44,684 nt of DNA from an uncultured Bacteriovoracaceae bacterium (GCA_938034385.1 CALHLC010000003.1:1-44684), one strand, 5' to 3'; shown: positions 4,849 through 35,537, counted from the stretch's first letter. Notes: generated from the letters alone by a model not told the origin. Numbers and translations: made by a program.

Positions 4849-6795
4849 ATGAAGTATTTATTAATAATTTTATCGTTATCAGTTTTCTCACAACAAAAGA
4901 GCTTTGATAAAGTGACTACCCTAGGTAATTATGAAGATATCCTAAAAGAACATGGAGTTAACTATTTCGATAAGTCTAACCCTGAATCTCTGAAAAGTTA
5001 TATCAATGCTAGGCTAGATTCAAACATCGTAATCTCCCAAGATAAAGATCATAAAGACTACAAAAGAGTTAAAAACGAAATACCATTTCTCAAAAGAGCT
5101 TTAAAGCAATTTGAAAATTATAAGAATCCAATAGAAGCCTTTAATATTGCGACGAGAGTTCTATACTCGTTAGATTCTGAGTTTCTAGAAAACGATAGCT
5201 ATACCAAACTAGGAAAATTCAAATTAGTTGAAAAAATTTGGAAGTCACAAGCTAAGTTTGATATCAGCGATAATCGAGATCCCCTTTCTACAATTAGCGA
5301 TAAATCATTAAACAAAGTAGCTTCAAACTTAGTTAAATCTCCAGGCGAGTACTATTCTAAGCAAGATATGAAGAACTTAACTCCTCAAGATATTTCGGAG
5401 TTAGATATCTCTGAAAACCACCCTAAATGGTTTACAAATTCAGCAAAGATCGATGGAAAAAAGCATTGGGAATATATTGAAAGTTGGGTAAATGAGAATG
5501 TAAGTAAGAAATTGAAGAAGAAAAAAAATATCGATGTAAAATATAATGTTCAGAATGCTCACCGTATTCTTGTTTTCGATGGAATGAAGAGTAATGATAC
5601 TAGTCCCAAGTTTAAGACTAGAGATATATACGGAATGAAATGGAAGCTTAAAATGGGAGAAGAGATCCACACTGAACCAATTCTAAATCGTCTATATGTA
5701 TTATTAGGTGGAAAGTTCAATGATTTAGTTTATGCTCAATCTGTTACACAAAATAATCTATCAGTAGTCATTCTAAATGAAGAAGATAACTCTCAAAGCT
5801 GTGACAAGGTAGCAAGTTTAGAAAAGTTAAAAAAATGCTTCTTAGATGGTCATTATAAGTTTGATATGAGTAGCTATGTTCATTCATATGGAACAATCTC
5901 TAGAGAAAACCTAAATCAAACTTTTAAGCCTCAGAATGAATTTGAGAGTAAAAAAATTGAAAAATACCTAGGTCGGAAATATTTAATTTTAAAAGAATCT
6001 TCTCTTGAATATAAAGACCATCCAATTATAAAGGCAGGTGCTACTGCTTTAAGTAATTTAGATTCTACCACAGATAGAGTTCAAAGAGGTTTATCCCTTT
6101 TCCACTCTTGGATCTCAAATGGAGACTTAAGAGATGCCAATACGAGATCGTATATCTTAAAAGACTTTATGGGTAAAGATCAATATATTGAGGCCGATCA
6201 TGACCTTGGTGCCTCTTTAGGCTTTATGCTAAAAATCGGGAGTATTAATCATTACAAAACTAAAGATAACTTCTTGATGACTTCAAAAAGAAATAAGCAA
6301 TTGGTTATTTTAGATTTAATTCTAAACAGGCCAAAAAGTTGGACGAAAGTCACATATGCCGATCTTAAGTGGATGCTTAATAAAATCCAAAAACTTAACC
6401 TTGAAGAATTAAAATGGGCCATTTCCTATAGTGCACTCCCAGTATTCATGGAAGAGATTATTTATAATAAAATGATTTCTAGAATTAATTCAATATTTGA
6501 AGTTTTTAAAATGGAAAAATTTGAAGAAAACCAAGCTTTAACATATTCCCTTCCTGTTAATACTGAAACAGCAAGTTCTCTAAATATCGCTCAAGAAGAC
6601 TTTATCAATTTCAATGAGAAAAATCCGAAATATACTGCTATTGATGATCAATTAAGTGTAGGAAATAAGATCTCAGAATGTAATGAATCTTTTTGGATAA
6701 ACTTGCTAGAGAGAACTAATCACCCTTCAGGCTTAAGTCGGAAACTCATGAGATTTAAGGATGATAGATCGCTAGCAGACTGCTCTCTCGATTAA
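4849..6795 (+). CDS. exported protein with kinase-like motifs, paralog 1
   Basis: The product has 648 residues. The N-terminus MKYLLIILSLSVFSQQ is a Sec signal peptide. The core (about 235-460) shows motifs in the order of a protein-kinase-like fold: KWKLK (264-268) with EE at 271-272 and E276 as a possible ATP-binding Lys and helix-C Glu; GDLRDANTRSYIL (425-437), resembling a catalytic loop with Asp426 and Asn431; and ADHDLG (449-454), resembling DFG. These motifs are identical or nearly so in the tandem paralog. The N-terminal 230 residues and C-terminal 190 residues have no recognised domain. It has its own terminator. The kinase reading is inference; the conservative call is an exported protein of unknown function. 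Confidence 0.8.
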   Translation: MKYLLIILSLSVFSQQKSFDKVTTLGNYEDILKEHGVNYFDKSNPESLKSYINARLDSNIVISQDKDHKDYKRVKNEIPFLKRALKQFENYKNPIEAFNIATRVLYSLDSEFLENDSYTKLGKFKLVEKIWKSQAKFDISDNRDPLSTISDKSLNKVASNLVKSPGEYYSKQDMKNLTPQDISELDISENHPKWFTNSAKIDGKKHWEYIESWVNENVSKKLKKKKNIDVKYNVQNAHRILVFDGMKSNDTSPKFKTRDIYGMKWKLKMGEEIHTEPILNRLYVLLGGKFNDLVYAQSVTQNNLSVVILNEEDNSQSCDKVASLEKLKKCFLDGHYKFDMSSYVHSYGTISRENLNQTFKPQNEFESKKIEKYLGRKYLILKESSLEYKDHPIIKAGATALSNLDSTTDRVQRGLSLFHSWISNGDLRDANTRSYILKDFMGKDQYIEADHDLGASLGFMLKIGSINHYKTKDNFLMTSKRNKQLVILDLILNRPKSWTKVTYADLKWMLNKIQKLNLEELKWAISYSALPVFMEEIIYNKMISRINSIFEVFKMEKFEENQALTYSLPVNTETASSLNIAQEDFINFNEKNPKYTAIDDQLSVGNKISECNESFWINLLERTNHPSGLSRKLMRFKDDRSLADCSLD

Positions 6796-6921: not shown

Positions 6922-8868
6922 ATGAAATATTTAATAATTTTACTCATCTCTGTATCTTCCCTCTCTCAAGAAAAGAAGCTTAATAAAGTGACTGCTCTGG
7001 GAGATTATGAAAAAATTCTTGAAGAACAAGGAATTCACTTCGAATCTAAAGATACTCCCTTTCTACTAAACTACCTAAATCAAAGAATAGAGACCAATAA
7101 TCTATCTCTTCAAGATAAAAATGACTCAAACTATAAAAGAGCAAAAAGTGAGAAACCTTTTCTAGAGCATGCAATAGAAGTGCTAGTTAATAGTAAAAAC
7201 CCAGTTGAAGGTTATAATCTTGCACTACGAGCTTTATATACCTTAGATGCAGACTATTTAGACAATGATGAATATAAAGGTTGGGGAAAAGTAAAAATGT
7301 TAGAGAAGCTTTTTAATGCTCAGGCTAAGTTTGATATTCGAGATAATCGAAATCCTACTGAAACTATGAGTAGAAAGTCTTTAAAAAAAGCAGCTTTAAA
7401 TCTTAAAAAATCTAGTGAGAGTTATTATCAAATCTCTGAACTTAAGGCCCTATCTCCAATGGATCTTTCAGAACTTGATATCTCAGAAAATCATCCCAAA
7501 TGGTTTCAAAATTCTGCAAAAGTTGATGGAAAAAAACATTGGGAATATATTGAGAGCTGGATTAATAAAAAGGTTTCGAAGAAATTCAATAAGAAAAACA
7601 AGGAAAGCATCTCTTATGATTTGAAGAAAGCAAATAAAATTCTTCTTTTTGACGGGATGAAGAGTAATGACTCTAGCCCTAAGTTCAAGACTAAGGATTT
7701 ATATGGGATGAAGTGGAAACTTAAAATGGGTGAAGAGATTCATACAGAATCAATGTTTAATCGTCTCTATGTCCTTTTAGGAGGAAAATTCAATGATCCT
7801 GTGTATTCACAGTCTGTAACAAAGAACAACCTATCAGTTCTGATTTTAGACAAAGAAGAAGATGCTGATGGATGTAAGAAGGTTTCAAACTTAGAAAAAC
7901 TACAAGACTGTTTCCTTAATGGATATTTTAAATTTAACATGAGTGGTTATGTTCATTCCTATGGAGATATCACTCTAGAGAACATCGAGGAAACCTTTAA
8001 TCCACAAAACTCTTACGAAGCTAAAAAACTTAAAAAATATGTTGGTAGAAAGTTCTTAATTTTAAAAGAAGCTTCTTTAGAATATAGAGATTATCCAATA
8101 ACTAAGTCTGGGCCTAGTACTTTGAGTAATTTAGATTCTCCAAGTGATAGAGTTCACAGAGGATTATCAGTATTTCATTCGTGGATTCAAAACGTAGACC
8201 TAAGAGATGCTAATACTAGATCATATATCTTGAAGGACTTCATGGGTAAAGATACTTATGTAGAAGCTGATCATGACCTTGGAGCATCTATGGGGTTTGT
8301 GTCGAAAATAGGAAGTGTTAATCATTTTAAAACAAAAGATAACTTTTTGATGGTTTCCAAAAGAGGTAAAGAGTTAGCTATATTAGATATCAGATATCAC
8401 TTCCCAAAAAGTTGGGATAAAGCGACTTATGCAGATATGAAATGGATGCTTGATAAAATTCAAAAATTAAAGCTAGAAGATTTGAGATGGGCAATTTCAA
8501 GTAGTGCATTACCAATATTTGTAGAAGATATCATTTATAACAAAATGCTCTCAAGAATAAATTCAATATTTGAAGTTTTTAACATGTCAACATTTCCAGA
8601 AGAGAAAAGAAGCAATATTTCTTTACCTATTAATGAAGAAACGGCTAAATCATTTAATATTTCAGATGAGGATTATGCTGAAAGTATTGAGCAATATAAA
8701 TCATTAATGAATTCTACTGATTCTTTATCTAGAAATAATAAGATTTCTGAATGTTACGAATCTTTTTGGGTAAATTTATTAGAAAAAGCTAATCATCCAT
8801 CTGGTATTAGTCGTAAAGTTACTAGGATGAATGACAGCGAGCCTTTGCCTCCTTGTAGCTTAGAGTAA
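6922..8868 (+). CDS. exported protein with kinase-like motifs, paralog 2
   Basis: This is a second 648-residue protein, colinear with the gene at 4849-6795 over its whole length and clearly homologous throughout. It has a signal peptide (MKYLIILLISVSSLS). The central motifs are retained: KWKLKMGEEIHTE, DLRDANTRSYILKDFMGKD and EADHDLGAS. The N-terminal region and the last 100 residues are the most diverged. Both genes share a similar A-rich leader with CTAG motifs just before the ATG. An old tandem duplication with both copies kept intact suggests selection for two specialised versions. Confidence 0.8.
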   Translation: MKYLIILLISVSSLSQEKKLNKVTALGDYEKILEEQGIHFESKDTPFLLNYLNQRIETNNLSLQDKNDSNYKRAKSEKPFLEHAIEVLVNSKNPVEGYNLALRALYTLDADYLDNDEYKGWGKVKMLEKLFNAQAKFDIRDNRNPTETMSRKSLKKAALNLKKSSESYYQISELKALSPMDLSELDISENHPKWFQNSAKVDGKKHWEYIESWINKKVSKKFNKKNKESISYDLKKANKILLFDGMKSNDSSPKFKTKDLYGMKWKLKMGEEIHTESMFNRLYVLLGGKFNDPVYSQSVTKNNLSVLILDKEEDADGCKKVSNLEKLQDCFLNGYFKFNMSGYVHSYGDITLENIEETFNPQNSYEAKKLKKYVGRKFLILKEASLEYRDYPITKSGPSTLSNLDSPSDRVHRGLSVFHSWIQNVDLRDANTRSYILKDFMGKDTYVEADHDLGASMGFVSKIGSVNHFKTKDNFLMVSKRGKELAILDIRYHFPKSWDKATYADMKWMLDKIQKLKLEDLRWAISSSALPIFVEDIIYNKMLSRINSIFEVFNMSTFPEEKRSNISLPINEETAKSFNISDEDYAESIEQYKSLMNSTDSLSRNNKISECYESFWVNLLEKANHPSGISRKVTRMNDSEPLPPCSLE

Positions 8869-20202: not shown

Positions 20203-23200
20203 TTAATAATCAATTTGAGGCTGAGCTGTAAAACCAAACATCGCAGTCGCACCAGATGTATGGATAATCTCTATATCAGTAACAACTCCACCTATCATCC
20301 CATAAGTATTACCTTGCCCTATTCTTCCATTACAAGCCGTAAACCCATTATAGTCATATTGAGCTGCACCTGCTGTACCTACTAAAGGATGGGCTCCAGC
20401 ATATAATCCAGATGCCGCCCCAAGACCAGTAAAGACTCTTTGGCTGGCGTTACCTGTCAACATCGTAACTCCTGATAAAGTAGTTAATACACCATTATAA
20501 AGATAGTTATCTATATTCCAACTTCCATCATTAACTATATTAAATCTCCCTGAACATCCTGACAGTCCAGAAAGCCAAACATTATCACTTACAAACTTTA
20601 ATTGACCATGCAGAGTTCCATTTAATGGACTAGCTTCAGCCCATGCACCACTAAAAGTAGTAGGCTGCCCAACAGTCACACCATCACCACTAATTATTTG
20701 AGAAACTTGAGCATGATCATTATCATGAGCACTAAAATATACTCTTTCATTAATTATAGTATTATCAGTATTAGCACTTACCGCCGGACAATAAGGTGTA
20801 CCAGGAGGAGTAGAACAACCTGTTCCACCAACTTCAATTTCAATTGTCATATCACTAGCATTTACTCCTTGGTGATTAACATTTGAATACGAATATGTAT
20901 CAGGGTTAGTTGGAACAGTAGTTGCATTAAATTGCCAAGGATCTGCCCACGCTTGCTTATCAAAATCAAAGCTCCCACCATCTTGAACAACTCCATCTAC
21001 ATCATTGATAACTGTTTTTCCACCAGCCAAAGCTGAGCTCACAAATGTTGAAATATTATCTCCAACGACTCCTGTCAATGTCTCACTAAAGCCATTTGTA
21101 TTTGTAAAAGTAAATGCCACACACTCACCAGCTGGAATAACAACTCCTGTGGAATCTTTCAATTCTATATCGTTTTCAAACCCACCTGGGCTAGCAGTTG
21201 AGTTTAGTCCGTAATGATCTCTTAATGGAACTTTCGCAAGACAAACTGCCGCAGCTGTTCCAGTTACCGCAGCCGAGTCTGAAGTACTTCCATCATCACA
21301 AGTTGCAGTATAAGCAAGATCCCAGGCACCAGCTGCTGTCGGGGTAATAGTGACTGATGGAAGAGTCCCTGTAAAAGTACAATTCGTACAAGTTGCTCCT
21401 GAATAAGTGATCGGAGCACAATTACTACTCGTATCATTTGCTGAAACATCTAATGCTGGTACAGCACTTCCAGCAGTACTAGAAGTAATCGGATCATCAA
21501 TAGCATCAATTGTTGGTGCAACTGTTGCGGTTCCTGAAACCGCTGCAGTATCACTTGTTGATCCATCAGCACAAGTTGCTGTGTAAGAAAGATTCCATGC
21601 TCCTACTGCTGTAGGAGTTATCGTTACTGACGGTAGCGTGCCTGCAAAAGTACAATTCGTACAAGTGCCCGCTGCATAAGTTATTGGTGCACAACTACTA
21701 TCCGTATCATTAGTTGAAACATCTAGTACTGGATTAGGTGATCCAGCTGTACTCGAACTAACTACATCATCAACTGCATCTACTACTGGTGTTGCTGCTG
21801 TTCCTGAAACTGTTGCTGTATCACTAGTGGTTCCATCTGTACAAGTTGCTGTATAAGCAAGATTCCAGGCTCCGGCTGCTGTTGGAGTAATTGTTACTGA
21901 AGGCAGCGTCCCTGCAAAAGTACAATTCGTACAAGTTCCAGCTGCATATGTGATCGGTGTACAATTTGAGTCAGTATCATTTGATGAAACATCTAAGGCC
22001 GGTAAAGGTGTCCCAGCTGCACTAGTAGTAATCACATCATCAACTGCATCAACTGTTGGGATTGGTGTTGCGTTTCCTGATACTGCTGCAGTATCTGAAG
22101 TAGTTCCATCTGCACAAGTTGCTGTATAAGAAAGGTTCCAAGCCCCAACTGCTGTTGGAGTAATCGTTACCGTAGGCAGAGTCCCTGAGAAAGTACAATT
22201 CGTACAAGCTCCGGCTGCATATGTTATAGGAGCACAACCGCTATCTGTATCATTTGAAGAAACATCTAATGCTGGAAGTGCAACACCTGGAGCACTAGAA
22301 GTTATTGGATCATCTACTGCATCTACTATTGGTGTTACAGCGGTTCCAAAAACAGAAGCAGTATCTGAAGTTGTTCCATCGGAACAAGTTGCTGTGTATG
22401 TATAACTCCAAGCTCCGTTAGCACTAGGAGTAATAGTTACTGAAGGCAGCGTCCCTGCAACACTACAATTTGTACATAGTCCTGCACTATAAACAATTGG
22501 AGCACAATTACTATCTGTATCATTTGTTGAAACATTTAAAACAGGTAATGCCGTTCCAGGGGAACTAGAAGCAATCGGATCATCAACTGCATCGACTGAT
22601 ACAACTGGTCCAGAAGCTGTTCCTGAAACAGCAGCGCTATCTGAAGTTGTTCCATCGGAACAAGTTGCAGTATAAGCAAAGTCCCAAGTACCTGCTGAAG
22701 TAGGAGTAACAATGACAGAAGGTAGCGTCCCTGAAAAGGTACAATTTGTACAAGTTCCAGCTGTATAAGTGATTGGAGCACATCCACTAGAAGTGTCATT
22801 ACTTTCTACATTAATTACTGGATTAGGTGTTCCTGCAGAACTATATGTTACAATATCATCTATCGCATCTACTTCTATATTCATTACATCATCATCTGAT
22901 GCACTATCTCCATCTGGAGAAGTAAGATCAGCATTACAAGTTACAGGAATAGCTACAACTTTAACATTAGTTGCAGTGTAAGTTCCGTTGGTACAAATAA
23001 CTGGAGCTGCAGCGCCACCATCACACGTAACGATGACACTACTTCCATCAGGACCACAACTTCCAGTAATAGAATTAGTAGTACCAATTGAAACACTTAA
23101 TGGATCGATTTCTACATTAACTGCCGATGTGTTAGAAGATGGATCCCACAAACGAGCATTTTGATTATTACAACCAAGTAGAAAAGCAGAAATGATAATA

Positions 23201-23217
23201 AGTTTAATAATAGACAT
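20203..23217 (-). CDS. large surface lipoprotein with six cysteine-bearing Ig/cadherin-like repeats
   Basis: The product has 1004 residues. The signal peptide ends in a lipobox LLGC (Cys16), so the protein is lipid-anchored. After an N-terminal module (about 35-114) there are six tandem repeats of about 90 residues (about 115-655), each starting VDAVDD, with NDT-S-CAP, CTNC, GTLPSVTITPT, YTATC-DGTTSD and VSGTA. The four Cys per repeat are conserved, which suggests two disulfides per domain. The C-terminal 340 residues are unique, Gly/Ser/Thr-rich and probably a globular head. The pattern resembles bacterial Ig-like or cadherin-like adhesin stalks. Such proteins reach out from the cell surface for contact; the binding target is unknown. 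Confidence 0.88.
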   Translation of the reverse strand: MSIIKLIIISAFLLGCNNQNARLWDPSSNTSAVNVEIDPLSVSIGTTNSITGSCGPDGSSVIVTCDGGAAAPVICTNGTYTATNVKVVAIPVTCNADLTSPDGDSASDDDVMNIEVDAIDDIVTYSSAGTPNPVINVESNDTSSGCAPITYTAGTCTNCTFSGTLPSVIVTPTSAGTWDFAYTATCSDGTTSDSAAVSGTASGPVVSVDAVDDPIASSSPGTALPVLNVSTNDTDSNCAPIVYSAGLCTNCSVAGTLPSVTITPSANGAWSYTYTATCSDGTTSDTASVFGTAVTPIVDAVDDPITSSAPGVALPALDVSSNDTDSGCAPITYAAGACTNCTFSGTLPTVTITPTAVGAWNLSYTATCADGTTSDTAAVSGNATPIPTVDAVDDVITTSAAGTPLPALDVSSNDTDSNCTPITYAAGTCTNCTFAGTLPSVTITPTAAGAWNLAYTATCTDGTTSDTATVSGTAATPVVDAVDDVVSSSTAGSPNPVLDVSTNDTDSSCAPITYAAGTCTNCTFAGTLPSVTITPTAVGAWNLSYTATCADGSTSDTAAVSGTATVAPTIDAIDDPITSSTAGSAVPALDVSANDTSSNCAPITYSGATCTNCTFTGTLPSVTITPTAAGAWDLAYTATCDDGSTSDSAAVTGTAAAVCLAKVPLRDHYGLNSTASPGGFENDIELKDSTGVVIPAGECVAFTFTNTNGFSETLTGVVGDNISTFVSSALAGGKTVINDVDGVVQDGGSFDFDKQAWADPWQFNATTVPTNPDTYSYSNVNHQGVNASDMTIEIEVGGTGCSTPPGTPYCPAVSANTDNTIINERVYFSAHDNDHAQVSQIISGDGVTVGQPTTFSGAWAEASPLNGTLHGQLKFVSDNVWLSGLSGCSGRFNIVNDGSWNIDNYLYNGVLTTLSGVTMLTGNASQRVFTGLGAASGLYAGAHPLVGTAGAAQYDYNGFTACNGRIGQGNTYGMIGGVVTDIEIIHTSGATAMFGFTAQPQIDY
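21250..22880 (-). repeat. six tandem coding repeats of about 270 bp
   Basis: The DNA underlying the six protein repeats shows a period of about 270 bases. Stretches such as the one encoding CTNCTF (AAAGTACAATTCGTACAAG on the plus strand) recur nearly unchanged. Near-identity between neighbouring units offers substrate for copy-number change by recombination. The outermost unit (nearest the N-terminus) is the most diverged. Confidence 0.85.
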
Positions 23218-29452: not shown

Positions 29453-29725
29453 ATGAAATATAAAATTCTAATTTTAAAAGTATGCATAACTATAATTTTA
29501 TTATTGGGATTAGGCATTTATTGCTTAAAAAATGAAACTGCTCTTTTAGCACTCAAGGGTACTAATCTCTCTATTTTTTTCTTTCTCATCTTTTTACATT
29601 TTCTTAACTATTGGGTGATGGCCAAAAAACGACAATTTATTTTAAGATTTATGAAGTGCTCGATGATGTCTTTTAATAACATTACTCATTATCGGTTCAA
29701 GCTCATCAATCTGAATAACAAGTAA
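29453..29725 (+). CDS. small putative membrane protein, convergent with cphA
   Basis: A 90-residue frame has two hydrophobic stretches (about 8-25 and 40-55), giving a possible two-span membrane protein, followed by a basic tail. There is no ribosome-binding site. A TATACT lies 5-6 bases before the ATG, which might suggest a leaderless transcript. The last 84 bases overlap the end of cphA on the other strand. It may be a genuine small protein or the edge of a decayed gene. Confidence 0.35.
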   Translation: MKYKILILKVCITIILLLGLGIYCLKNETALLALKGTNLSIFFFLIFLHFLNYWVMAKKRQFILRFMKCSMMSFNNITHYRFKLINLNNK

Positions 29726-32254
29726 GTCTCCATCCCCTGCTGCTTCGAAAAGTTTATCCAGAGCTTCATCCTCATTAAGAATTAGTTCAATAGAATCCTT
29801 ACTAAGCCCTCCATCTATTAGCCCTTGAAAAACTAGGTTTGCAGTTTCTCCCTTTTCTCGATCACGAGGATCGCAATCGGTCACAATGACCTTATGATAA
29901 ACGCTTGCTAACGCTTTTCCATAATCAATAATTTGTTCATCAGTCCGGCTTCCCGTCCCATGACATAAAACAGTCTTTCTTCCATCTGAAATGCGTGGTA
30001 GTAATTTTTTTAAAGCACGCACTGAATCTGAGTTGTGCCCGTAATCAATAAGAACTTTGTAACTTTTAAAGTCAAATAGATTCATTCGCCCTGGATTTTG
30101 AGTCCTAGAGGAATGAAAAGTCATGATGCCATTTCGAATTTGATCAGTTGATAGTTTAAGACCATATAACGCTCCAATTGCAGCAAAAGCATTAGAAATA
30201 TTAAAATCAATAATTCCACCAAGAGTAATTGGGATCTCTTCAATAGAGCAGATAATTATATCAAGCTCACTTGTTCTAATTATCACATTTCTCTCAACTA
30301 AAGTAACCGCAGTTCCTCCATTACCAATATGACTAATTATTTTTTCGTTATTAGAATCCAAGGAAAATAAAATAATATTTCCACGAGCACGATCAAGTAA
30401 ACTCATTGTTGATTCATCATCAGCATTTAAAACGGACGTTCCAGATTCTTTAACAACTTCTATTACTGTTGATTTTACTAAGCAAAGATCTTCTTGTGTT
30501 TCAATCCAATCTTTCCCTATATGGTCAGTACCAATATTAAGTAAGATCCCTACGTCTACCATACGAACTCCAAGACCTCTTCGAACCACTCCTCCCCTGG
30601 CAACTTCCAAGACAATATGATCGACAGTTGGCTCTCTTAAAACAATTTTTGCTCCTTCCGGACCGCTATAATCTCCAGAAAAAATTGCTTTACCATCTAT
30701 TTCAATTCCTGTTGTACAGGCCAGGCCCACTTTCTTTCCTGAATACTTAAGAGCATGAGTAATGAGTTTAGAAGTTGTTGTTTTACCATTCGTACCCGTA
30801 ACTGCTATCACTGGTGTTTCAATATGCTCTTTGGGGAAAAGCATATCAATCATTGATTTCCCCACGTTACGAGCTTGTCCGCTTGTTGGTTCCAAGTGCA
30901 TTCTAAATCCAGGGGCTGCGTTAACTTCAATAACATGAACACCAGACTCCTTGGGAGATAAAGAAATATCACTCCCTATCGCATCTAGTCCCATGCAATC
31001 CAAACCTATAATTTTCGACGCCCTCTCTGCCATTATTCGAATATCAGGATGAACTTCATCTGTAACATCAGTCGCCGTTCCACCTTGGCTTATATTAGCA
31101 GTTGTTTTTAAGTATACTTTTTCGCCTTTTTCAGGAACCGAATCAAGACAAAGACCTTTCAATAAAAGAAGCCTTTTTGTCATCTCATCTATTTCTATTT
31201 GTGTAAGGACTTTTTCATGTCCAAACCCTCTTCTAGGATCTTTATTAATCTCATCAACTAAACTTTTAATTGATGATTGACCATCACCTACCACACAAGC
31301 CGCATCTCTTTTTGCCGCAGCTATAAATTTTCCGTTTACGACTAATAATCGAAAATCTGCACCTTCAATAAATTCCTCAATGATGACAAAAGGATGTACT
31401 TCCTTTGCCATTTGAAAAGCAGACTTAAGCTCATCAATACTACTAACATTTATAGTTGCACCATTTCCATGGTTTCCAACATCAGGCTTAACAACGACAG
31501 CTCCACCCATTTTGTCGAAAGCAGCAATCGCCTCTTCCAAATTTGAAGCAACATACCCGTCGGGAGCAGGAATTCCAGCTTGCTTGAGATGTCTCTTCAC
31601 TCTTGTTTTTTCGTCAGCAGTTTCAACGGCAATAGCAGATGTTTGGCAGGTCATAGAAGCTTGAATCCTCTTTTGGTTTGCTCCAAACCCTAGTTGAATA
31701 TAGCTATCCTCATTCAACCTAGTATATGGTATTCCTCTTTTAACGGCCTCCTTCACAATACTCCATGTTGTAGGGCCCAACATATCTTTCTCTCTTAAGG
31801 TTTTTAATTCTAAAATAATCTCTTTTATATTAACTTGTCTTTCTTTTACAATTGATTCAAAAAGAAAAACCGCTTTTTTTGCTGCTAACAAACCTGCTGA
31901 TTCTACTCTATAACGGAAAACAACAAGGTAAATACCATCTTGAGACGTACAAAATGTTTTTCCATAGCTCACCTCCATTCCAGATAGGCATTGCAGTTCA
32001 ATAGCAATATGCTCGATAATATGACCGGCCCAAGTTCCTTCTTTTAATCGCTGGACAAAACCTCCTGGGCCACCAATAGAACAACCATGCTCTCTTAGAC
32101 TGGGAATCAAATCAATTAAGCGATCAGAGAACCCTAATATTTTGTTAGAAGGTTTATCTTCATACTCTTTGATGTCCAAGACCATGAATATTGCCGTATG
32201 GCGTGTATAGCGATTGGGACCACGTAAGGCCCTTAATTCTTTAATTTCAATCAT
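29642..32254 (-). CDS. cphA: Cyanophycin synthetase
   Basis: CphA builds cyanophycin, a poly-aspartate backbone with arginine side chains, using two ATP-dependent ligations. The 870-residue product has the N-terminal domain (about 1-160), an ATP-grasp domain (GGAVVVKPDVGNHGNGATINV, EEFIEGADFRLLV) that adds Arg, and a Mur-ligase-like domain (TGTNGKTTTSKL, about residue 490; LLNIGTDHIG) that extends the Asp backbone. The length is normal. I choose the start at 32254 because GGAG lies 6 bases upstream; an ATG at 32266 overlaps the cphB stop (TAATG). It is the last gene of the cyanophycin operon. Confidence 0.96.
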   Translation of the reverse strand: MIEIKELRALRGPNRYTRHTAIFMVLDIKEYEDKPSNKILGFSDRLIDLIPSLREHGCSIGGPGGFVQRLKEGTWAGHIIEHIAIELQCLSGMEVSYGKTFCTSQDGIYLVVFRYRVESAGLLAAKKAVFLFESIVKERQVNIKEIILELKTLREKDMLGPTTWSIVKEAVKRGIPYTRLNEDSYIQLGFGANQKRIQASMTCQTSAIAVETADEKTRVKRHLKQAGIPAPDGYVASNLEEAIAAFDKMGGAVVVKPDVGNHGNGATINVSSIDELKSAFQMAKEVHPFVIIEEFIEGADFRLLVVNGKFIAAAKRDAACVVGDGQSSIKSLVDEINKDPRRGFGHEKVLTQIEIDEMTKRLLLLKGLCLDSVPEKGEKVYLKTTANISQGGTATDVTDEVHPDIRIMAERASKIIGLDCMGLDAIGSDISLSPKESGVHVIEVNAAPGFRMHLEPTSGQARNVGKSMIDMLFPKEHIETPVIAVTGTNGKTTTSKLITHALKYSGKKVGLACTTGIEIDGKAIFSGDYSGPEGAKIVLREPTVDHIVLEVARGGVVRRGLGVRMVDVGILLNIGTDHIGKDWIETQEDLCLVKSTVIEVVKESGTSVLNADDESTMSLLDRARGNIILFSLDSNNEKIISHIGNGGTAVTLVERNVIIRTSELDIIICSIEEIPITLGGIIDFNISNAFAAIGALYGLKLSTDQIRNGIMTFHSSRTQNPGRMNLFDFKSYKVLIDYGHNSDSVRALKKLLPRISDGRKTVLCHGTGSRTDEQIIDYGKALASVYHKVIVTDCDPRDREKGETANLVFQGLIDGGLSKDSIELILNEDEALDKLFEAAGDGDLLVIQIDELEPIMSNVIKRHHRALHKS

Positions 32255-32265
32255 ATTTGTCTCCA

Positions 32266-33090
32266 TTATTTTTTGGAAAGATTTTCTAAGAATTGTCTCT
32301 TTTTAAAATCATATCCATACCCATGCACAATTGAATGTATACGAACATTTTCTACTGCAATAGAACCACCGGGCTCTATTTCCATAATATTTGAATGAAT
32401 GATTCCACTACCATCAACGATAATCACTTGTCCTGTTCCAATAACTTCGGTTGTTCCGTTTCCTTTGAAAATAATTCCCGAATTTTCACCGATTCCAACA
32501 CCAATGCATTTAGGATTTGTTGTAACAATCTGAACAAGACGTCCGATACGACCTCTTGCTATAAAGTGAGTATCAAAAACGATATTTTCAACGAAGCCAA
32601 AGCCCGCAGCTGTAAAAACCTTCCCTTTCAATAAACCTTCTTCGCTCTTTCCTTCATAAATCATATTATCAGAGAAAACTGCAGCTCCAGCACTTGTTCC
32701 CGCAATGATAGCTCCCTCTTCTAAACAAGAATACATCGCCTGAAGGACTTTTGAGCCACCTAAAATTGTAGTAAGTCTTAGTTGATCTCCTCCTGTGAGA
32801 AAAATTAAATCTGCTTCCTCTAAGCTTTTAACGAAGTCTTTATTATTGACCTGCAGCCTTTTTCTTATATCTAGAATTTTAACCTCTAAAGCTCCAAGAT
32901 TCTTAAATACGCTAAGATAATCCTTTCCTCGTTGCTCAGGATCTTCACTCGCTGTAGTGATAACCACGACTTTGTATTCTTTCTTTCCGACTTCTTGAAC
33001 AACACGCTTTAAGACAATAAGATCATTAGCCTTATTTTCATTTCCACCAATCGCTATCAGCCTTCCTCGAAATACGGGTTTGATCGTCAT
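32266..33090 (-). CDS. cphB: Cyanophycinase
   Basis: This serine exopeptidase (peptidase family S51) releases beta-Asp-Arg dipeptides from cyanophycin. The 274-residue product has the catalytic serine elbow GTSAGAAVFSDNMI and FLTGGDQLRL, typical of the family, and GRLVQIVTTNPKCIGVGIGENSG. It overlaps the peptidase gene upstream by 4 bases (ATGA) and touches cphA downstream. No signal peptide: it acts in the cytoplasm on intracellular granules. Its neighbours supply the enzymes just before and after it in the cycle. Confidence 0.95.
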   Translation of the reverse strand: MTIKPVFRGRLIAIGGNENKANDLIVLKRVVQEVGKKEYKVVVITTASEDPEQRGKDYLSVFKNLGALEVKILDIRKRLQVNNKDFVKSLEEADLIFLTGGDQLRLTTILGGSKVLQAMYSCLEEGAIIAGTSAGAAVFSDNMIYEGKSEEGLLKGKVFTAAGFGFVENIVFDTHFIARGRIGRLVQIVTTNPKCIGVGIGENSGIIFKGNGTTEVIGTGQVIIVDGSGIIHSNIMEIEPGGSIAVENVRIHSIVHGYGYDFKKRQFLENLSKK

Positions 33091-33899
33091 GCCAATCTTT
33101 TAGTTGCTTGAGACCATGCCATTGCGGTTCGAGATTCTGCACAAAAGTCATTCCTTGTTAAAATAATAAGACCAATTTCAACAGTCTCATCAAATAACGA
33201 AATTGCTTTAAGTGCAGCTACATGAATATTCATCCCTCTAGTCAACCAACCATAAACTTCTTTCGCTAAAACCTTGAGAGCAATAGATTCCCCATTCCCT
33301 GTACAAGCAACTGCGCCATCAGGCCCACAAAAAAGTCCACACCCAGGAAGAGGAACATCCCCAACTCTTCCCACCGAAGAACCTTTGGTTCCTCCTGAGC
33401 TTAACGATGCAGAGAAATAATGACCATCAAAGGTTAATGCTCCAACCGTATCACATTGTAATAAGTTTCCTTGTTTAGGATTAACCACTACTGAATCTAA
33501 AAGAGCTACATTTTGCTCTATTGCAAAACTCAATGCACCTTGCCCGGAAAGGATAATACAAGGAGAATTTACCAGTACTTTTTGTGCTAACTCAATAGGG
33601 TTTTTAATATTTTCAACACAGGCTACAGCTCCAAAATTCCCATCACTTACCATACAAGCAGCATCAAATTGTCTAGTGTAACCATCGCTACGAATACAAG
33701 ATCCTGCCCCCGCATTAAAACGAGAATCGTTTTCAAGAATTTTTACTGCAAGTACAGAGCCTTCCAAAGCAGGGCGTCCATTTTTCAAAACATCCATGCT
33801 CATTTGTGCAGCAAGCTCGGGTCCATCTGAATCACTAGGATCCGAACATGCTCCAGCATGAGTAATCACAGCATATTTAAACTGACTATTTTGTGTCAT
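33087..33899 (-). CDS. Isoaspartyl peptidase / plant-type L-asparaginase
   Basis: This Ntn-hydrolase precursor of 270 residues should cleave itself before Thr151 in QCDTVGALTFDG; GGTKGSSVGRVGDVPLPG forms the substrate pocket. The family hydrolyses beta-Asp dipeptides, precisely the beta-Asp-Arg that cyanophycinase releases. The usual Gly before Asp-Thr is Cys here. The length is at the short end for the family. Its start ATG shares one base with the stop of the RRM gene upstream (TAATG) and it overlaps cphB by 4 bases. iaaA-like function is well supported by context. Confidence 0.93.
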   Translation of the reverse strand: MTQNSQFKYAVITHAGACSDPSDSDGPELAAQMSMDVLKNGRPALEGSVLAVKILENDSRFNAGAGSCIRSDGYTRQFDAACMVSDGNFGAVACVENIKNPIELAQKVLVNSPCIILSGQGALSFAIEQNVALLDSVVVNPKQGNLLQCDTVGALTFDGHYFSASLSSGGTKGSSVGRVGDVPLPGCGLFCGPDGAVACTGNGESIALKVLAKEVYGWLTRGMNIHVAALKAISLFDETVEIGLIILTRNDFCAESRTAMAWSQATKRLA

Positions 33900-34153
33900 T
33901 ATTTACTTTTATCTTTTGCGAGATTAACCTTTATAGTTCGTCCTCTAAAATTAGCACCATCAAACTTCTCAATTGCATCTGCTGCCTCCTGTTGATTTTT
34001 CATTTCAACAAACCCGACGCCCTTATTTTTCCCCGTTTTTTCATCTTTCATAATATTAACGGACACCACTGTTCCTGATTCAGAAAAAAATTTTTCTAAA
34101 TCAATATCCTCTGTATTAAAAGATAGGTTTCCTACATATAACTTTGACTTCAC
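33899..34153 (-). CDS. small RRM RNA-binding protein 2
   Basis: A single RNA recognition motif with about 84 residues: RNP2 is LYVGNL and RNP1 is KGVGFVEM, where the usual aromatic third residue of RNP1 is Val. I choose a GTG start at 34153 because GGAGG lies 7-8 bases upstream and the product then begins MKSKLYVGNLSF, exactly like its paralog at 34694. Cyanobacteria and some other bacteria encode similar single-RRM proteins. Its stop overlaps the isoaspartyl peptidase start by one base, so the two are translationally coupled. Confidence 0.9.
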   Translation of the reverse strand: MKSKLYVGNLSFNTEDIDLEKFFSESGTVVSVNIMKDEKTGKNKGVGFVEMKNQQEAADAIEKFDGANFRGRTIKVNLAKDKSK

Positions 34154-34170
34154 TTTTACCTCCAAGGTAA

Positions 34171-34662
34171 TTACTTTTTATTATTCAGAATTCTAGAAAC
34201 GAATTCCTTACTTTCACTTAATGTCATTTTAAAGATGATCGAAGCTTCTATTTCTACTGTTTCAACTAATTTGTCACATATTCTTTGTTCCTTAGGAGTT
34301 AAATCTAAAGTGCAAATTAAATCCAGTAATCTGTTGGCAATTGACTTGATGTTATCTTTCTCAAATGGTCGATTAAAGTAAACATGCCTTTCTTTTATTG
34401 AAGAAAACTTTTTACTTTCTCTCTTTCCTTCAAAGACTTCAAACGCACCTTCAAACTCCTTTCGAGAAGATACAAAGCGAAGACTCTTATTGTTATCAAC
34501 CGGGAAGTAATTTTTTACATTTTTCTTTCCATATTCAACAACATAATAATTGTCACCATTTTCTTGAAGCCTTTTTATTGAAGAAATTACACCTATTCCA
34601 AATTTCATCGACAAGACTTTTGATCCAATATATTTGTCACTATGATTAGCTTCTTCATTCAT
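34171..34662 (-). CDS. CarD/CdnL-like RNA-polymerase-interacting protein
   Basis: The N-terminal part (about 8-75) reads YIGSKVLSMKFGIGVISSI then YYVVEYGKKNVKNYFPVDN, the beta-rich RID domain shared by CarD, CdnL and Mfd. CarD proteins bind the RNA polymerase beta subunit and steady the open complex. The C-terminal helical part (about 100-163) is consistent with a CarD DNA-contact domain but diverged. I start at 34662, where AGGAGG precedes ATG by 5 bases; a longer frame to 34734 overlaps the gene upstream. It lies between two RRM genes in the cyanophycin operon. Confidence 0.8.
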   Translation of the reverse strand: MNEEANHSDKYIGSKVLSMKFGIGVISSIKRLQENGDNYYVVEYGKKNVKNYFPVDNNKSLRFVSSRKEFEGAFEVFEGKRESKKFSSIKERHVYFNRPFEKDNIKSIANRLLDLICTLDLTPKEQRICDKLVETVEIEASIIFKMTLSESKEFVSRILNNKK

Positions 34663-34693
34663 AAAAACCTCCTTGTTCAAATAAAAGCCCACA

Positions 34694-34972
34694 TTAAATA
34701 CGAGGTTTTTGGAAACGTGACTTTTTATCATCATTTGCCAAACCTACCTTTAATACCCTTCCCTTAAACTCTTGACTATTCAAACTTTCTACTGCCTTAG
34801 CTGCTTCTTGTTGGTTTTTCATTTTAACAAACCCAAAGCCTTTAGTTTTGCCAGTGAAGTGATCTTTAATTAGATCCACCACTTCAACTAATCCACTATC
34901 AGAAAAGAGAATTTCCAAATCTTCACTTGTCGTTTCAAACGAAAGATTTCCAACATACAATTTTGATTTCAT
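34694..34972 (-). CDS. small RRM RNA-binding protein 1
   Basis: A single RRM of 92 residues: RNP2 LYVGNL, RNP1 KGFGFVKM with intact aromatic residues, then NQQEAAKAVESLN and a short basic tail ending RFQKPRI. It is the first gene of the operon, with GGAGG four bases before ATG. It is paralogous to the RRM protein encoded at 33899-34153. Even the ribosome-binding segment, TTGGAGGTAA, is shared, so gene and leader were probably duplicated together. Confidence 0.92.
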   Translation of the reverse strand: MKSKLYVGNLSFETTSEDLEILFSDSGLVEVVDLIKDHFTGKTKGFGFVKMKNQQEAAKAVESLNSQEFKGRVLKVGLANDDKKSRFQKPRI

Positions 34973-35111
34973 ATTACCTCCAAAGTAATTATTTTTTACA
35001 AACCAATACCTTAAACCTCAAAAAAAGATTTCTCATATTTAACTTTTATCTCATCCTTGCATCCAAGGTGAAATTAAGTTAACTAGATTTCCAAAAAAGG
35101 TTGTTCAGTTT

Positions 35112-35231
35112 TTAATTTTCTTTTTTCTTGATTCTAACGAAAGTTTTGTTTTCCGAGTTTAAATAGAAAAACCCCAAAACCATAATTAAAGAAACTAACA
35201 CGGTAAGTTCAACCGTAATGGCTACAAACAT
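35112..35231 (-). CDS. 39-residue putative single-span membrane protein
   Basis: This gene is shorter than usual gene-finder limits. ATG at 35231-35229 follows an excellent AAGGAGG with an 8-base gap. The product starts MFVAITVELTVLVSLIMVLG and continues into a hydrophobic helix (about residues 2-24), then a polar basic tail NSENKTFVRIKKKEN. It sits 140 bases upstream of the RRM/cyanophycin operon on the same strand. Tiny membrane proteins of this shape often act as subunits or regulators of larger membrane complexes; its partner is unknown. Confidence 0.6.
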   Translation of the reverse strand: MFVAITVELTVLVSLIMVLGFFYLNSENKTFVRIKKKEN

Positions 35232-35537
35232 AGTAAACGCCTCCTTCTGGAAGGTTTAAGTAACTAAAAGCCTAGAGTTGATTATAAATTCAAAGTGGTG
35301 ATCCACGGTGAGCCATAAAAAAGCTTCGATTAATCAATGTAGTCCATATAAGGAGCAATAGCAAGTTATTGAAACAATGAACAGTACCAGCCACTTGTAG
35401 ATTCGTTTTTAAGTATTATCAATTCTTCAATCACTTGAGCTAATCAATATTAACTCCGAAGTTGATATTGATCTAAATTTTATTATTAACCTTAAATATC
35501 CAGCAGTAGACACCTTCCCACACTAAGGTAAGATGCA
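35232..35537. other. intergenic region between 39-aa gene and YheT-like gene, with a 13-bp hairpin
   Basis: No gene is seen here. The clearest element is an inverted repeat: ATCAATATTAACT (35443-35455) and AGTTGATATTGAT (35460-35472), 13 pairs with one G-U in the plus-strand RNA and a CCGA loop. An A/T-rich tract follows on the plus strand. It lies about 65 bases before the YheT-like start codon. Either a regulatory operator or a transcript hairpin is possible. Confidence 0.5.

Follow-up and report, generated by a model that had tools for sequence, protein, structure and literature searches.

RRM proteins are common in bacteria, and few of them have known targets. The genes of cyanophycin metabolism are better described: cphA1, cphB and iaaA are clustered in 49 of 153 complete genomes that contain cphA1, a cyanophycinase and iaaA (Sharon et al. 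2023, PMC10206079), and no RRM/CarD head was found described for such clusters in the part of this source covered here. The window analysed is a stretch of 44,684 nucleotides (nt) from an uncultured Bacteriovoracaceae bacterium (GCA_938034385.1, CALHLC010000003.1:1-44684). It has the same three enzymes in a cluster; their genes follow one another as iaaA, cphB and cphA, the starts overlap, and two RRM genes and a CarD-like gene stand ahead of them as a head. The locus is read here, with about an even chance of being right, as a complete cyanophycin cassette transcribed behind a lineage-specific regulatory head, in which the RRM proteins would control their own synthesis and pass this control on to the cph genes. 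The six genes are given below, with identities to the orthologs in a genome of the same genus (G068).

34694..34972, minus strand: RRM1, a single-RRM protein of 92 amino acids (aa) (PF00076, E 6e-22; ortholog at the same place, 54%)
34171..34662, minus strand: CarD-like protein of 163 aa with the RID domain (PF02559, E 5e-6; ortholog 48%)
33899..34153, minus strand: RRM2, a single-RRM protein of 84 aa with a GTG start (PF00076, E 7e-22; ortholog 67%)
33087..33899, minus strand: IaaA-type isoaspartyl peptidase (Asparaginase_2), a short divergent form (PF01112, E 1.4e-44)
32266..33090, minus strand: CphB, cyanophycinase (TIGR02069, 234.5 bits, cut-off 126.6; solved cyanophycinase 7uqv, E 3e-62)
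29642..32266, minus strand: CphA, cyanophycin synthetase 1 type (TIGR02068, 1091 bits, cut-off 850; alignment with 7wac and 7lg5)

The open reading frames (ORFs) were read directly in the window, and the minus-strand order RRM1, CarD-like, RRM2, IaaA, CphB, CphA claimed by the initial annotation was borne out. The same holds for its junctions of 17 bases, two TAATG and one ATGA: the CarD-RRM2 junction is 17 nt, RRM2-IaaA and CphB-CphA are TAATG overlaps, and IaaA-CphB is an ATGA overlap. The RRM1-CarD junction is 31 nt. Internal terminator or promoter signals in the operon did not exceed the background. A chance run of ORFs is excluded because all six genes recur in the same order in G068, with protein identities of 48-78%. 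The cassette and the regulatory head are therefore supported as one operon-like unit, from whose sequence we infer a single transcript, RRM binding, the direction of control and the function of the CarD-like protein.

The catalytic motifs of the three enzymes, also claimed to be intact, were confirmed. The TIGR02068 match to CphA covers positions 1-860 of 862, with the full N / ATP-grasp / Mur-ligase architecture. The solved cyanophycin synthetases 7wac and 7lg5 align along its length, including the intact Mur-ligase P-loop TGTNGKTTT; the ATP-grasp domain is also present. This full-length alignment and the kept P-loop place CphA in the CphA1 type, as a predicted cyanophycin synthetase. CphB, of family S51, has the GxSxG nucleophile motif as GTSAGA, aligned with 7uqv, and also contains HF...RGR. 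The IaaA protein has the motifs DTVGA, GRVGD and TGNGE, with the nucleophile Thr at TVGA; this catalytic motif and the short divergent form are common to the cph-linked relatives, and the protein scores far under the E. coli-type equivalog NF007589 (72 vs 567 bits). By these predictions CphA1, CphB and IaaA are a complete make-and-break cassette for cyanophycin, and the enzymes themselves are ordinary.

The distribution of the cassette was followed in the class sample of the window, 129 genomes of one family, in which the window's own genome (G000) is 99% complete. Full-length CphA was found in seven of the 129. The full order RRM-CarD-RRM-IaaA-CphB-CphA is present in G068, where CphA is 78% identical to that of the window. 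Within the genus, G000 and G068 carry CphA, CphB, the CarD-like protein and a 5' leader described below, the leader standing at the cph operon only; the congeners G066 (98% complete) and G067 carry none of these. Other relatives have IaaA-CphB-CphA without RRM or CarD genes, namely G062 and three metagenome-assembled genomes labelled Desulfobacula, Legionellaceae and Proteobacteria (CphA identity 65-70%). As the loci L100-L102 and G062 hold the same enzymes without the head, the RRM/CarD-cph linkage is ruled out as a general feature. In a further family genome, G046, window-type CphA is represented by its C-terminal part alone, at a contig end (L041:9078-10226), which may reflect either a broken gene or the edge of the assembly.

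In four other family genomes CphA is of another type, and in three of these an amidohydrolase gene separates cphA from cphB. Loci of this second type are L037:2813-7435, L036:3047-7792 and L038:7745-12358, and the amidohydrolase is possibly IadA. A small tree places the window-type enzymes beside those of the metagenome-assembled genomes from other phyla and not with the second type of the same family. The simplest reading is that the three-gene cassette was moved by horizontal transfer. Since the head is absent from the relatives' cassettes, the locus would combine a storage cassette shared by horizontal transfer with a regulatory head particular to the lineage. A search for the empty site with the flanking hydrolase gave no homolog in three congeners.

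The two RRM proteins have one RRM each with RNP motifs, and they match NF058537 (Rbp_regulator) at 88.1 and 95.5 bits, under the curated cut-off of 100. The CarD-like protein matches PF02559 (CarD/TRCF RID) at 26.9 bits against a cut-off of 23, and its G068 ortholog at 34.5 bits. The RID is the recognised part; the C-terminal part had no Pfam match. Among solved CarD/CdnL chains there was no significant match (best 2lqk, E 0.17), and a single-sequence AlphaFold model with a mean pLDDT of 40 was not used. A longer start for this ORF lies at 34734, upstream of the ATG with the GGAGG site. By analogy with CarD/CdnL, the protein would act on transcription.

The association of these proteins extends beyond cyanophycin. 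An RRM gene lies within 1.5 kb of 16 of the 79 CarD-like matches in the family (12 genomes); about 0.28 would be expected under random placement, a value calculated with about 3.3 RRM genes for each genome and applied to related genomes that are not independent. Outside the cph operons, 11 of 14 CarD-RRM pairs are on the same strand and at most 300 bp apart. For example, RRM genes are followed directly by a CarD-like gene in G048, G049, G003 and G029. Judged from gene order, the RRM-CarD pair is a wider module, mostly without cph.

A repeat search found that the sequence directly before the start codons is common to RRM1 and RRM2:

34974..34988, minus strand: UUACUUUGGAGGUAA, the Shine-Dalgarno palindrome of RRM1; the window has two matches, both at RRM starts
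34156..34170, minus strand: UUACCUUGGAGGUAA, the Shine-Dalgarno palindrome of RRM2, with the same letters ahead of RRM2 in G068

The pattern TTACYYTGGAGGTAA, with up to two mismatches, has two matches in the window (0.34 expected), exactly at both RRM starts. The RRM2 form is identical also before RRM genes of three other genomes. In all the loci fetched, the genes preceded by the palindrome are RRM genes and, in a single case, an FKBP-type gene. This last gene (G029, L160:388-505), which is no relative of the RRM genes, carries the leader as well as the palindrome. Among 43 RRM genes inspected, 11 encode the motif DLE.[LF]F[SA]; the palindrome (up to two mismatches) precedes 10 of these 11 and none of the 32 others, the eleventh, RRM1 of G068, having a degenerate copy. 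The Fisher p value for this link is 6e-9, uncorrected for shared descent and with the subfamily motif defined after the list had been seen. By these counts, the palindrome is specific to one RRM subfamily.

The region upstream of RRM1 contains three further features, which, like the palindromes, were absent from the initial annotation:

35336..35364, minus strand: promoter-like site TTGCTA-N17-TACATT (35364-35359, 35341-35336), a -35/-10 pair with a 17-nt spacer, from sequence only
35229..35335, minus strand: conserved 5' leader RNA, with the P1 hairpin (9 bp) at 35318-35282 and a second hairpin at a Shine-Dalgarno site at about 35254-35240
35112..35231, minus strand: small hydrophobic ORF of 39 aa, with its ATG at 35231 directly after the leader

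Over the 149 nt ahead of RRM1 the window and G068 have 82% identity; the flanking proteins are about 50% identical. G068 has a 26-aa ORF at the place of the small ORF, with MFV as the sole common residues, and the window ORF (35231-35112) is a possible leader peptide. A DNA search with the leader found relatives in further genera. A covariance model (R1) built from five leader copies gave blind genome-wide matches ahead of RRM genes in G074 (E 2e-8) and G076 (1e-4), of an AlaDH-like gene in G039 (2e-5) and of a gene for a PF10294 methyltransferase in G078 (0.02). Nearly all leader copies are preceded by TTGCTW-N17-TANNNT at the same distance. In 12 aligned copies 98% of the P1 cells are paired, compared with 29-46% in slid-partner controls, and double (compensatory) changes were seen at two of the nine pairs and wobble changes at three. 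An alternative short stem, AGCU/AGCU, was left uncounted because P1 fits the alignment better.

A second model (R2) gave 13 leader copies, spread over nine genomes and six genera; the remainder of the 369-genome phylum sample had no copy. Matches of 25-29 bits in G028, G108, G021, G057 and G023 were inspected and rejected as weak. Downstream of the 13 leaders are the cph operon (two), RRM genes (two), a CarD-like gene, FKBP followed by CarD-like, FKBP, an AlaDH-like gene, ATP-grasp followed by AlaDH-like, PF10294 methyltransferases (two), an unknown gene, and a set of NTP-transferase, aminotransferase and CDP-alcohol transferase genes (one copy each where no number is given). Rfam searches at gathering and relaxed thresholds gave no family for the leader, and at most tRNA in the window and five loci with copies. 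The leader and the Shine-Dalgarno palindrome seem to be two candidate RNA signals undescribed in the sources searched.

These downstream genes bear on the strongest alternative, in which the RRM and CarD-like proteins belong to a general module, for example for stress or growth phase, that acts elsewhere; the cph genes would have been placed under its promoter and co-expressed without being specifically regulated. The variety of leader-bearing genes (FKBP, AlaDH-like, methyltransferase and others) is consistent with it, as are the RRM-CarD pairs mostly without cph and the cph cassettes elsewhere without the head. However, within the genus the leader is confined to the cph operon, and head and cassette are jointly present or absent in four species. 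This alternative is a serious one and might well be correct, while falling short of an even chance.

The leader might instead be a riboswitch that senses a small molecule, such as an amino acid, and governs the operon, and the RRM palindromes would then be merely strong ribosome-binding sites. A structured, conserved 5' leader beside a start codon, with genes related to amino acids downstream (AlaDH-like, ATP-grasp, cyanophycin), would fit such a function; however, the conserved part is small, one hairpin and short single strands without a multi-branched pocket, the downstream genes have no obvious common metabolite, and the 5' arm of the palindrome is conserved though unneeded for ribosome binding. 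A riboswitch is thus considered improbable.

In G068 the unit lies between two rve-type insertion sequences of the same direction (L040 158-1629 and 7317-8785), which have terminal inverted repeats and are 73% alike; the surroundings of the unit differ between G068 and the window. A recent composite transposon in G068 is ruled out, as the two elements are just 73% alike. A chance fusion by such elements, with the gene order as a rearrangement by-product of no regulatory meaning, would account for these flanks and the unlike surroundings, but is very improbable, because the overlaps, palindromes and leader were retained while the proteins diverged to 48-78% identity and the insertion sequences do not form a recent transposon.

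In the preferred reading of autogenous RRM control passed to the cph genes, a sigma-70-type promoter would start the messenger RNA, whose first ~105 nt would fold into the conserved leader. RRM1 and RRM2 would bind small hairpins in which the Shine-Dalgarno sites of their own genes lie, and so limit their own translation. Repression or release at the RRM2 site would reach iaaA, cphB and cphA by translational coupling, because the RRM2 stop overlaps the iaaA start and iaaA, cphB and cphA overlap one another. The CarD-like protein would adjust RNA polymerase at the operon promoter and at a few others. A broader form of this reading is held more tentatively, as a possibility below even odds: a class-specific RNA system in which the RRM subfamily represses its own Shine-Dalgarno hairpin, with the CarD-like partner and the promoter-leader spread across a small regulon, and which in one genus was fused to a horizontally acquired cyanophycin cassette whose synthesis would be set by RRM binding.

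Several observations weigh against these readings. The head is joined to cph in two genomes only. Twelve of the 13 R2 matches had served to train that model, the sole new one being G074:C46 (E 0.003), and two weak leader copies were found by inspecting the surroundings of CarD-like genes. The palindromes are short and their hairpins weak (-2 to -6 kcal/mol), with another local fold favoured in three cases and little covariation; the palindrome may therefore be a linear protein-binding motif. The RRM genes, being homologous, could also have their common flanks by descent. Dedicated control of the operon, as proposed by the initial annotation, thus stands in part. The operon-like unit, its real overlaps, the linkage kept in G068 and the conserved palindrome at both RRM genes speak for it; the gene-order search in relatives found the full order in that one congener, whereas the other cph-bearing relatives with readable flanks lack the linkage and the RRM-CarD pair is mostly found without cph.

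A search for ArgG (argininosuccinate synthase) found none in G000 (99% complete) and none in G068; the same search gave a match in all 14 control genomes, and G062 has ArgG. Arginine would therefore have an outside source or be made by another route. Scavenging is the probable origin of the stored arginine, although one enzyme is insufficient to prove auxotrophy. This would fit the initial annotation's idea that a predatory host could bank prey-derived arginine as cyanophycin. The open-licence literature yielded no paper that links predatory bacteria to cyanophycin synthetase, and none that links Bdellovibrio to RRM proteins. If the reading is true, the locus suggests an RNA-level control of cyanophycin storage, undescribed so far, in an organism apparently without the ArgG step of arginine synthesis. 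For the RRM subfamily, a specific candidate binding site lies at its own start codon, the partner gene is constant and the other candidate targets are few, so that a single purified protein and a single short RNA would be enough to test the question.

Elsewhere in the window, positions 4849-6795 and 6922-8868 encode two adjacent, clearly related proteins of 648 aa without a Pfam match. A 1004-aa protein (20203-23217), also without a Pfam match, has several repeats around 'VDAVDDxITSSxxGxxxPxLDVSxNDTDSxCxPITY'. The start of an IS3-type transposase, judged by eye, lies near the contig end (43613-43924).

Among known systems, the bacterial single-RRM proteins (NF058537; cyanobacterial Rbp; A. baumannii AB-Elavl, PMC9313427) share the single RRM and the length of about 80-90 aa with RRM1 and RRM2; whereas the subfamily here differs from the NF058537 proteins by its sub-cut-off score, its palindromic Shine-Dalgarno box and its CarD-like neighbour. 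The CarD-like protein has the N-terminal RID domain (PF02559) and a similar length in common with the CarD/CdnL RNA-polymerase-binding regulators, whereas in the window protein the RID part alone is recognised. Autogenous translational repressors are known among ribosomal proteins and CsrA-like proteins. The layout here would be the same, with the Shine-Dalgarno site of the repressor's own gene in a small hairpin and the effect spread by translational coupling, whereas the role of repressor would presumably fall to a bacterial RRM protein.

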